Assembly (NCBI RefSeq): GCF_016767175.1
Contig: NZ_CP068564.1
Span: forward strand, 1,984,001-2,048,000
Direction: 5' to 3'
Length of the DNA: 64,000 bases
Source: Keratinibaculum paraultunense
GTDB lineage: Bacteria > Bacillota > Clostridia > Tissierellales > Tepidimicrobiaceae
Below the pieces are notes generated by a model that made no database searches, was not told where the DNA came from, and saw only the letters and a program-made list of their open reading frames with translations. Made by a program: the position numbers and the translations under genes. Shown here in pieces: positions 7,587-13,102 of the stretch; positions within the stretch are counted from its first letter, which is position 1, and each line of letters starts with the position of its first letter.

Positions 7587-7836
7587 AAAAATCCCTAAGC
7601 AAAGCTTAGGGACGGATTTCCGCGGTACCACCCAAATTATAAGACAAAAAATACTTGTCTTATCACTCATTTAGTATAACGCCTTAGGCGTAGTATCTTA
7701 CTGATATTTCAGATACCATGCTCCGAGGTGATGTTCATAAAGAGCTTACTGATGATTTTCCACCAAATAATCATCTCTCTGTAAGTAATGCTCTTTATTA
7801 CTGTCCTCATCCTAGCATTTATATTGTTATATTTTG
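7587..7836 (-). promoter_or_regulatory. T-box leader of ileS with Ile specifier
   Basis: On the minus strand the T-box core GGGTGGTACCGCGG (7633-7620) is followed by a terminator hairpin CCCTAAGC/GCTTAGGG (7611-7593) and a U-run. Upstream, a Stem I-like region contains GAACATCACC, whose ATC (7732-7730) is an isoleucine codon in the position expected for the specifier. This is the standard arrangement for sensing uncharged tRNA. It accounts for the gene-less 7556-7842 stretch. Confidence 0.9.
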
Positions 7837-11572: not shown

Positions 11573-12838
11573 TTAATTTTTCCCTTTACTATTTAAAATA
11601 ATATTTAAAATTATTCCCACTATAGCTGCAAAACTTAAACCAGTAATTTTTACTGTTTCATTTATTGGTATCCCTACCGTTATTCCAAATTTACTTTCTA
11701 TTATTCCACTTCCAAGTCCCAAGACTAATATACTTCCCATAATTAATATATTTTTAATATTAAATTTTACATTGCTAGTCTTAATGGTTTTAACTCCTAT
11801 TAAAGATATCATACTAAACAGCATCAAACTTATTCCACCCATAACTGGAGTTGGTATAGTATTTAAAAACACTCCAATTTTTGATACAAATCCTAATATC
11901 ATTGCAAATACTGCAGCTAATCTCAATATAGATGGATCATAGTTCTTGGTTATAGCCAATACTCCTGTATTTTCACCATAAGTTGTATTAGCTGGTCCTC
12001 CAATTAGAGCTGCAGCCATTGTAGCCAATCCATCTCCTAGTAATGTTCTATTTAAACCTGGATCTTCTATAAAGTTCTTCCCTACGACTTGTCCATTTGT
12101 AGTTATATCTCCTAAATGCTCCATAAAAACTGCTAATACCACAGGAACAATTATGGTTATAGCACCTATATCAAATTTAGGCAAACTAAAAGCTGGTATT
12201 GCTAATGTTGGTGCTTCTTTCATCAAATTCATATCTATATATCCCATTTTTAAAGATATTATATATCCAACAGTTACACCTATGAGTATGGATAATTGCT
12301 TAAATATACCCTTCCCTCTGAAATTTACTAATAAAGCTGTGCCTAAAGTTATACCTGCTATTAAAAAATTTTCACTTGTATTTTGAAATGCTACAGGAAT
12401 TAAGTTCATTCCAATAACTATTATCATAGGCCCTATTACCTGAGGAGGAAGATATTTTTTAATCTTTTCTACTCCTATCCTCTTGATTAGGAAAGATAAT
12501 ACTACATATACTAAGCCTGCTACCATTATTCCACCTTGTGCATAGGCTAAATCTCCATTATAAGTTTCTTTTACTGTCAATATAACTGGTATAAATGCAA
12601 AAGATGAACCTAAAAATACTGGAACTTTTCCTTTAGTACATAGATGAAAAATCAAAGTTCCAAGCCCCGCCGAAAACAAAGCTACTGATGGATCAAATCC
12701 TGTTAATATTGGCACTAGTACAGTGGCACCAAACATAGCTATTAAATGTTGAAGAGCTAATATTGTCTTTTTGGAATTATCCAAAAACTTTTCTTTAACC
12801 CCATGAGTCTCATTAATTTTAATAACATTTTCTGTCAT
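11573..12838 (-). CDS. uraA: Uracil permease (NCS2/NAT family)
   Basis: The 421-residue membrane protein has about 12-14 hydrophobic segments and imports uracil with protons. The NCS2 features are visible: the early LQHLIAMFGATVLVPILTG (residues 30-48), a glutamate in the VFMEHLGDITTNGQVVG segment, and the NTTYGENTGVLAITKNY signature. Alternative names are pyrP and uraA. It is transcribed alone between its own terminator and a 200-base leader holding two PyrR boxes, so it should be repressed when UMP/UTP is high. The start is ATG 12838 with AAAAGGAGG six bases upstream. Confidence 0.93.
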   Translation of the reverse strand: MTENVIKINETHGVKEKFLDNSKKTILALQHLIAMFGATVLVPILTGFDPSVALFSAGLGTLIFHLCTKGKVPVFLGSSFAFIPVILTVKETYNGDLAYAQGGIMVAGLVYVVLSFLIKRIGVEKIKKYLPPQVIGPMIIVIGMNLIPVAFQNTSENFLIAGITLGTALLVNFRGKGIFKQLSILIGVTVGYIISLKMGYIDMNLMKEAPTLAIPAFSLPKFDIGAITIIVPVVLAVFMEHLGDITTNGQVVGKNFIEDPGLNRTLLGDGLATMAAALIGGPANTTYGENTGVLAITKNYDPSILRLAAVFAMILGFVSKIGVFLNTIPTPVMGGISLMLFSMISLIGVKTIKTSNVKFNIKNILIMGSILVLGLGSGIIESKFGITVGIPINETVKITGLSFAAIVGIILNIILNSKGKN

Positions 12839-12845
12839 GAAAAAA

Positions 12846-12906
12846 CCTCCTTTTAATATTTAAAGGAGAACACTCTCCTTTTCAGCCTCTCTGGACTGAT
12901 TTAAAG
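12846..12906 (-). promoter_or_regulatory. Second PyrR-binding hairpin with Shine-Dalgarno sequestering switch
   Basis: In the RNA, AGUCCAGAGAGGCUG (12897-12883) is a clean PyrR-binding box whose lower stem would be CCUUU/AAAGG. The same 3' strand is part of AAAAGGAG (12882-12875), which can pair instead with CUCCUUU (12868-12862). CUCCUUU can also pair with the permease's own AAAGGAGG (about 12853-12846). The three elements are mutually exclusive: PyrR bound would leave CUCCUUU free to hide the ribosome binding site. The PyrR box is clear; the translational switch is inferred from base pairing. Confidence 0.72.
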
Positions 12907-12930
12907 GCAGGATTGTAAATAATCTGCATA

Positions 12931-12963
12931 AAAAAACTTCTTGCAGGCAGCAAGAAGTTTTTT
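12931..12963 (-). terminator. PyrR-controlled attenuator terminator in the uracil permease leader
   Basis: AACUUCUUGC (12959-12950) pairs with GCAAGAAGUU (12944-12935) over a five-base loop, followed by UUUUUU, on the minus strand. The hairpin lies between the two PyrR boxes. Its 5' arm (UCUUGC) can instead pair with GCAAGA just after the first PyrR box, which gives an antiterminator. Confidence 0.85.
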
Positions 12964-13011
12964 ATACTAAAAAATATAAGTATAGTTTGCATAATCCCTA
13001 TTACAATTTAC

Positions 13012-13046
13012 AATCTTGCCAGCCTCTCTGAACTGATTTAAAGATT
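13012..13046 (-). promoter_or_regulatory. First PyrR-binding hairpin (anti-antiterminator)
   Basis: In the RNA AGUUCAGAGAGGCUGG (13034-13019) is enclosed by a perfect lower stem AAUCUU (13046-13041) and AAGAUU (13017-13012), the classic PyrR-binding fold. The surrounding UUUAAAUCAGU-CAGAGAGGCUG is nearly identical to the second box, which suggests duplication. Binding of PyrR with UMP would release the terminator at 12931-12963. Confidence 0.85.
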
Positions 13047-13102
13047 TACTTTTAATTTGCTCTAATTATTTTATCACTAATTTAATTAATATGCAATAAA
13101 TT

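Follow-up and report, generated by a model that had tools for sequence, protein, structure and literature searches.

Two PyrR sites in the uracil permease leader of Keratinibaculum paraultunense: a predicted attenuator followed by a candidate switch at the Shine-Dalgarno sequence

The leader of a uracil permease gene of Keratinibaculum paraultunense carries two PyrR sites in series. With moderate confidence, we read this leader as a PyrR-based repressor of uracil uptake that would work in two stages and depend on UMP; its second site would hide the Shine-Dalgarno sequence (SD) of the gene and could also terminate its transcript. The gene lies in a stretch of 64,000 nucleotides that was analyzed as a whole (the window). 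Attenuation followed by control of the SD is, by sequence comparison, well supported as an architecture that recurs in related Clostridia. If the proposal is true, one sensor protein would control the same mRNA at two checkpoints, RNA polymerase and then the ribosome, and repression of uracil uptake would be tighter and steeper than with one attenuator.

The permease leader and its two PyrR sites

The permease matched the profiles TIGR00801 (327 bits, above cut-off) and PRK10720.1, uracil permease (324.3 bits, below the 477-bit cut-off). Read 5' to 3' on the minus strand, the leader consists of a probable promoter, PyrR box 1, a terminator, a short linker, PyrR box 2, AAAGGAGA, UCUCCUUU, the SD AAAGGAGG, six U residues, a C and the AUG. 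The gene and the upstream elements are the following:

11573..12838, minus strand: NCS2 uracil permease gene, 421 aa, AUG at 12838-12836
13068..13096, minus strand: probable promoter, TTGCAT (13096-13091), 17-nt spacer, TAAAAT (13073-13068), TG just upstream; read by eye
13012..13046, minus strand: PyrR site 1 hairpin, lower stem AAUCUU...AAGAUU; RF00515, 61.3 bits
13014..13024, minus strand: putative antiterminator 5' strand GGCUGGCAAGA, pairing with 12955-12946; from sequence, and from prefix folding for its GCAAGA:UCUUGC part
12930..12963, minus strand: predicted intrinsic terminator of site 1, stem AAACUUCUUGC:GCAAGAAGUUU, then T7; -16.5 kcal/mol

The stretch at 13068..13096 is probably the promoter of the permease leader, and the transcript start was assumed at about 13061. 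Relatives carry TTGC...TGGTGATATAAT stretches that resemble it by eye; a promoter scan of the window did not list it. The genome encodes PyrR, from a pyrR gene outside the window (NF003549, 254.3 bits; PyrR chains of the PDB at about 1e-67). By eye, this gene (L003) adjoins rluD- and lspA-like ORFs and not pyr genes. The window also contains a T-box leader (153 bits, 7605-7822, minus strand).

Both boxes, already recognized in a first-pass annotation of the sequence, match RF00515 (gathering cut-off 54 bits) at the coordinates given there, on the minus strand. The match over site 1 spans 13048-12927 and scores above the cut-off, at 61.3 bits, and that over site 2 spans 12911-12837 and scores below it, at 49.6 bits (E 6e-6). 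The lower stem of box 1 (AAUCUU:AAGAUU) is perfect, as had been claimed. The terminator of site 1 reads AAAAAACUUCUUGC-UGCCU-GCAAGAAGUUUUUUU, and the UCUUGC in its 5' arm is complementary to the GCAAGA that follows box 1; this pairing, also foreseen in the annotation, appeared as an antiterminator in prefix folding of the leader, with a probability of 0.81-0.98 when unconstrained versus 0.00 with box 1 forced. Once the 3' arm of the terminator was complete, the terminator formed with or without box 1 forced, so that the decision at site 1 would be a matter of timing. In anatomy and folding, the box excludes the antiterminator and the antiterminator excludes the intrinsic terminator; by these two lines of evidence site 1 is an ordinary attenuator of the Bacillus subtilis type. 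In the first stage of the proposed mechanism, PyrR on site 1 would keep GCAAGA from the antiterminator, and the terminator (12963-12930) would end the transcript. A general terminator scan did not list this terminator, because its stem runs into the T-run.

Downstream, box 2, AAAAGGAG, CUCCUUU and AAAGGAGG were all found in the leader, and the elements of site 2 are the following:

12877..12907, minus strand: PyrR site 2 hairpin, lower stem CCUUU...AAAGG; RF00515, 49.6 bits; both-sided changes in the lower stem
12862..12881, minus strand: predicted antisequestor hairpin AAAGGAGA-GUGU-UCUCCUUU, which excludes the lower stem of site 2; nascent-RNA folding, weak covariation
12846..12869, minus strand: predicted SD sequestor or terminator hairpin UCUCCUUU-AAAUAUUA-AAAGGAGG; constrained folding, both-sided changes, terminator-like scan score
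12846..12853, minus strand: Shine-Dalgarno sequence AAAGGAGG of the permease, from sequence
12840..12845, minus strand: U6 tract directly 3' of the SD hairpin; enrichment test and own-genome rate

The second stage would act on polymerases that have passed site 1. PyrR on site 2 would keep AAAAGG in the box, which would free UCUCCUUU to pair with the SD; the resulting hairpin would hide the SD and, together with the U6 tract, could also end transcription immediately 5' of the AUG. In the absence of PyrR, the AAAGGAGA:UCUCCUUU hairpin would form first, and the SD would be exposed as it emerges.

Recurrence of the arrangement in relatives

The comparison was confined to the 80 most similar of 182 permease relatives from a single scan, a choice that does not sample them evenly. 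With our own, 81 leaders were thus examined, up to 560 nt upstream. Two boxes were present in 43 of these 81 leaders (own plus the best 80 of 182), and the set was sorted as follows, leaders with a three-strand switch, tandem or single, being called indirect below:

Tandem with three-strand switch: 36 leaders, the distance from box 2 to the start being mostly 67-88 nt and larger in L043 and L047, which have insertions
Tandem with box 2 beside the SD: 7 leaders
Single box with three-strand switch: 15 leaders
Single box on the SD: 16 leaders
No box at up to four mismatches: 7 leaders, including L094 and L107, cut by contig ends, and L112, with a divergent box seen by eye

The single-site leaders number 31, counting L093 and L106, in which a degenerate first box is visible by eye, and all of them retain the SD-proximal kind of site. 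A script that requires only a hairpin with a T-run after it placed a terminator between the two boxes of 42 of the 43 tandem leaders. Its choice in L088 was a weak hairpin, a better one being visible downstream, and in L111 only 29 nt separate the two boxes. On the tree, the tandem leaders with box 2 beside the SD (Caloramator and kin) form one side of a branch with support 100/99. The single boxes on the SD (mostly Tissierella and kin) require two changes, and the tandem three-strand leaders with a U-tract require ten. RF00515 matches were found in 34 of 41 related genomes; by our own count, 17 of the 41 contain one or more pairs of matches spaced by up to 250 nt. Of 196 genomes drawn evenly from the class, 64 matched the A1 model at E<=0.001 and only 6, our own included, scored above 70 bits.

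Some members of the set have features of their own. Insertions of about 100 nt with GACCTAAC-like ends lie between the anti-SD strand and the SD in L043 (about 407-495) and L047 (about 1332-1440); they gave no Rfam match at the gathering cut-off, and L051 and L053 have stretches 5' of the box that look similar by eye. The record of L071 is titled Lutibacter sp. B2 (Bacteroidota) and holds a clostridial-type permease with a PyrR leader; to judge from the tree, this record may be mislabeled.

A box that overlaps or adjoins the SD occurs in 23 relatives (7 tandem, 16 single); at about 20 nt from the start codon, it leaves no room for a terminator. When the upper stem of the box was held, the mean probability that the SD was unpaired was 0.33 in the 16 single-box leaders of this group and 0.55 in its 7 tandem ones. 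In the latter, L095 apart, the SD lies mostly 3' of the stem and not inside it, and therefore PyrR itself would have to cover the SD.

The second site: probable roles in ribosome access and termination, and a possible coupling

The first-pass annotation had stated that CUCCUUU can pair with either neighbor, and folding recovered both alternatives. In prefix folding of our own leader the antisequestor stood at 0.93-0.96 until the SD emerged and at 0.55-0.91 afterwards; with box 2 forced it fell to at most 0.02, and the sequestor reached 0.88-0.93. Over 49 indirect leaders (L043 and L047 omitted), the mean probability of an unpaired SD was 0.07 with box 2 forced versus 0.51 with its 5' arm kept unpaired. 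When the middle strand was shuffled (30 sets), this difference averaged 0.008 and never exceeded 0.052; as a set, the predicted three-strand switch of site 2 thus exceeds chance. Leader by leader, the same contrast closed the SD by more than 0.3 in 37 of 51 and opened it in only one. Folding with and without the box, a check suggested in that annotation, showed the switch for the set and hardly for our own leader, where the contrast is tiny (0.04 with box 2 forced versus 0.07 with the 5' arm open). Loss of complementarity between CUCCUUU and the SD in relatives, named beforehand as fatal to the scheme, was not what we saw: with box 2 held, the SD was paired (unpaired probability at most 0.24) in 49 of 51 indirect leaders, and its helix shows both-sided changes. 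The exceptions are L098 and L105, which, like L085, are poor fits to the three-strand scheme.

Dinucleotide shuffles of the middle strand within single leaders had little power, since a strand of about 10-20 nt retains CUCC in most shuffles, and they were replaced by the set-level test; p<=0.05 was reached for the sequestor in 4 of 51 leaders (own 0.106) and for the antisequestor in 9 of 51. The SD-helix score had a median of 16.0 versus 10.5 at control genes and was at least 15 in 37/49 leaders versus 6/31 controls; the 95th percentile of the controls was reached by only 4 of the 49.

An alignment of box and sequestor, covering 45 of the 51 indirect leaders, had 91.4% standard pairs. Both-sided changes, counts that kinship among the sequences inflates, occurred at 10 pairs versus 6.0 in shuffles and in 48 cells versus 20.0 +/- 4.4; the number of further pair types in box and sequestor did not rise above shuffles (104 of 500 as high). 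The sequestor helix was 87.7% paired, with both-sided change in four of its eight pairs: pair 61-84 is UA in 36 sequences, CG in 4 and UG in 4, pair 63-82 is UA in 10, AU in 8 and unpaired in 23, and pair 62-83 is unpaired in 13. The antisequestor was 78.6% paired, with both-sided change in two of eight pairs, which is little more than in shuffles; counted over the structure as a whole, pairs with such a change were as numerous in 151 of 500 shuffles. Of the covariation that had been suggested for both partners of CUCCUUU, the part concerning the SD sequestor thus held, and that of the antisequestor is weak, which we put down to the register of this helix varying between lineages.

With the RNA truncated just short of the SD, the antisequestor outcompeted the lower stem of the box in all 49 leaders. 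An equilibrium ON/OFF model proved insufficient: unconstrained full-length RNA left the SD paired, with a mean unpaired probability of 0.105 over the 49 leaders, partly through the 5' arm of box 2, and our own free RNA kept it paired both in the site 2 piece (0.03) and in the whole leader (0.12). As equilibrium folding leaves the SD paired, and frees it least in our own leader, the decision at site 2 would fall during transcription.

If site 2 were a functionless copy of site 1, decayed or redundant, its score of 49.6 bits, below the cut-off of 54, and the small SD contrast in our own leader would agree with this. This explanation is nevertheless highly improbable, as box 2 persists in many lineages and its lower stem shows both-sided changes, and it is the SD-proximal kind of site that the 31 single-site leaders retain.

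The U-tract bears on whether site 2 would act on transcription, on translation or on both. A run of T>=6 within one base of the SD was present in 26 of 36 tandem and 5 of 15 single leaders with a three-strand switch, in none of the 7 tandem and 16 single leaders with the box beside or on the SD, and in 1 of 32 control genes taken from the same loci. The tract therefore follows the SD hairpin in 31 of 51 indirect leaders, our own included, and 20 of 51 are without it. In our own genome, T>=5 follows 7 of 399 AGGAGG-N6-8-ATG sites. Five of these seven have T>=6, the permease gene among them, and the other two (T5) are without a hairpin. Three of the four other T>=6 starts, L126, L127 and L129 (G000:C1:686932, 1413301 and 1534097), have their SD inside a strong hairpin with a U-tract, and these hairpins are possibly terminators of the preceding genes; the fourth, L130, has no strong SD hairpin. 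At least one further AGGAGG start, with G and then T7, is among the sites listed. An Rfam scan of the six other U-tract starts matched no family.

A terminator scan scored the SD hairpin of the permease as terminator-like (1 found versus 0.2 expected), and its stem has only 8 pairs, 3 of them G-C. For riboswitches, a dual expression platform with the ribosome binding site in the 3' side of the gene-near terminator is described in the accessible part of Barrick and Breaker 2007 (PMC2258182); by the rule taken from that part, our hairpin qualifies, ending at 12846, less than 10 nt from the AUG at 12838, with the SD in its 3' arm. Because the U-tract occurs in 31/51 indirect leaders versus 0/23 with the box on or beside the SD and 1/32 control genes, site 2 is probably such a dual platform, in which the SD forms part of the 3' arm of a terminator and which would act on transcription and translation at once. 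The enrichment of the tract and the terminator-like score make the predicted termination at this site likely here.

Two simpler readings of site 2 each leave part of this pattern aside. The leader could hold two transcription attenuators in series, with site 2 acting by termination only and the SD overlap being incidental packing before the start codon. The U-tracts directly 3' of the hairpin in 31/51 indirect leaders, the scan call, the three other gene starts of this genome whose SD hairpin has a U-tract and, in the accessible part of PMC7430163, the three like attenuators of the B. subtilis pyr genes would fit this. We regard it as unlikely: 20/51 indirect leaders have no tract and nearly all of the indirect leaders pair the SD, the box lies on or beside the SD, where a terminator is impossible for reasons of space, in 23 relatives and in our own pyrB leader, and the stem has just 8 pairs, 3 of them G-C. 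Conversely, in the view of the first-pass annotation, site 1 attenuates and site 2 acts on translation; the U-tract, which that annotation does not mention, would then be a neutral spacer. Leaders without a U-tract, or with the box on the SD, do suggest ribosome access as the common denominator, and we consider this view unlikely; such tracts are rare behind SDs generally (1/32 control genes; 7/399 with T>=5), common with a sequestor hairpin (31/51) and absent without one (0/23). What that annotation proposed, attenuation and a translational mode in series, thus survives comparison as regards a second site acting on the SD, and probably not as regards a purely translational one, given the UUUUUU at the end of the SD hairpin.

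Under the favored two-stage reading, the sites might also be linked by a long-range helix, which the first-pass annotation does not mention:

13006..13015, minus strand: predicted long-range helix 5' strand GAUUGUAAAU, 3' side of site 1
12911..12920, minus strand: predicted long-range helix 3' strand AUUUACAAUC, just before site 2; own p=0.01

Compared with shuffles, this helix reached p<=0.05 in 19 of the 42 tandem leaders (own, L035-L049, L056, L065 and L063); in L063 it has another sequence, and the other 18 are of the Tissierellia type. In the folding model of our own leader it stood at 0.96 in free RNA versus 0.01-0.04 with box 1 forced, and the lower stem of box 2 rose from about 0.2 to about 0.9 on forcing box 1. 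Forcing box 1 raised the mean lower stem of box 2 from 0.32 to 0.83 in 16 leaders with the helix and from 0.46 to 0.62 in 17 others, including L063, a grouping made after the results of the helix test had been seen. The helix leaders L041, L042, L044 and L065 showed no or a small rise, and L059 and L096, without the helix, rose as much. That the sites are mechanically coupled, PyrR on site 1 preparing site 2 for a second PyrR in a sharpening relay and the PyrR-free transcript being locked on, we consider quite doubtful.

Known regulators and the pyrB leader

The modules of this leader are each known, and their tandem arrangement, attenuation plus SD control, was not found described in the open-licence literature, as far as the accessible texts go. 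Subscription journals and regulon databases lie outside that search, so that absence from it is weak evidence. The "two PyrR" of PMC10942264 are, in the accessible part of that paper, two pyrR RNAs of separate genes. In B. subtilis, three attenuators, before pyrR, pyrP and pyrB, are described as identical in the accessible part of PMC7430163. Site 1 shares their logic of box, antiterminator and terminator; unlike them, the permease has two sites with different predicted outputs within one leader. The accessible part of PMC2258182 describes, for riboswitches, ribosome binding sites inside the sensor and tandem compound switches, besides the dual platform. Like the dual platform, site 2 could block expression by termination and at translation, here with a protein-binding hairpin in place of a metabolite aptamer and preceded by an attenuator for the same protein. 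As in the tandem riboswitches described there, two like sensors share one leader, each with its own expression platform; here, however, the sensors are sites for a protein, and their platforms would differ in kind. TRAP of B. subtilis, a single RNA-binding protein, serves attenuation and access to the ribosome binding site according to the accessible part of PMC4347634. PyrR is likewise proposed to act at both levels, through two separate, similar hairpin sites and not the multiple NAG repeats given there for TRAP.

The permease was at one point taken as the only PyrR target of the genome, which is wrong, since pyrB (G000:C1:657307), outside the window, carries two weaker sites in its leader (G000:C1:657163-657297; L145, 1352-1491). 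Box 1 comes with a terminator and scores 52.3 bits, below the Rfam cut-off. The 3' arm of box 2 (32.7 bits, E 0.014, also below it) runs into the SD, for which the unpaired probability was 0.20. To us, this leader offers the clearest support for the prediction that PyrR acts on transcription and on ribosome access within one leader.

Fields and Switzer are said to have reported, in 2007, PyrR-dependent translational repression in Mycobacterium smegmatis, where the box reportedly blocks ribosome access. The mark of this type is a PyrR hairpin that itself lies over the SD; site 2 of our pyrB leader has it and, like the Tissierella-type leaders, resembles that system. The permease site differs, in that a third strand would be used and the box is not over the SD: the last position of box 2 is 12877, and the SD starts only at 12853. 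If the two-stage proposal is true, it would show how PyrR control shifts between transcriptional and translational modes. Natural intermediates exist among the relatives (tandem indirect, tandem with an SD-adjacent box, single with the box on the SD), which makes the order of changes testable.

A pyrB gene was found in 99 of 118 genomes of the class. Among the best 30 of these 99, of which 29 could be parsed, 8 leaders had a box at up to four mismatches, 6 had a box within 50 nt of the start and 3 had two boxes. With a looser pattern, 11 of 12 distinct pyrB leaders, selected for having boxes or paired matches, had two boxes with a T-run between them, L147 being the one without. In the 13 rows for these 12 leaders (one place occurs twice), the SD piece had an unpaired probability of at most 0.28 in 10, and of 0.44-0.98 in L133, L139 and L143. 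If the proposal is true, annotation by the Rfam cut-off can miss sites such as permease site 2 (49.6 bits) and the two of our own pyrB leader (52.3 and 32.7 bits).
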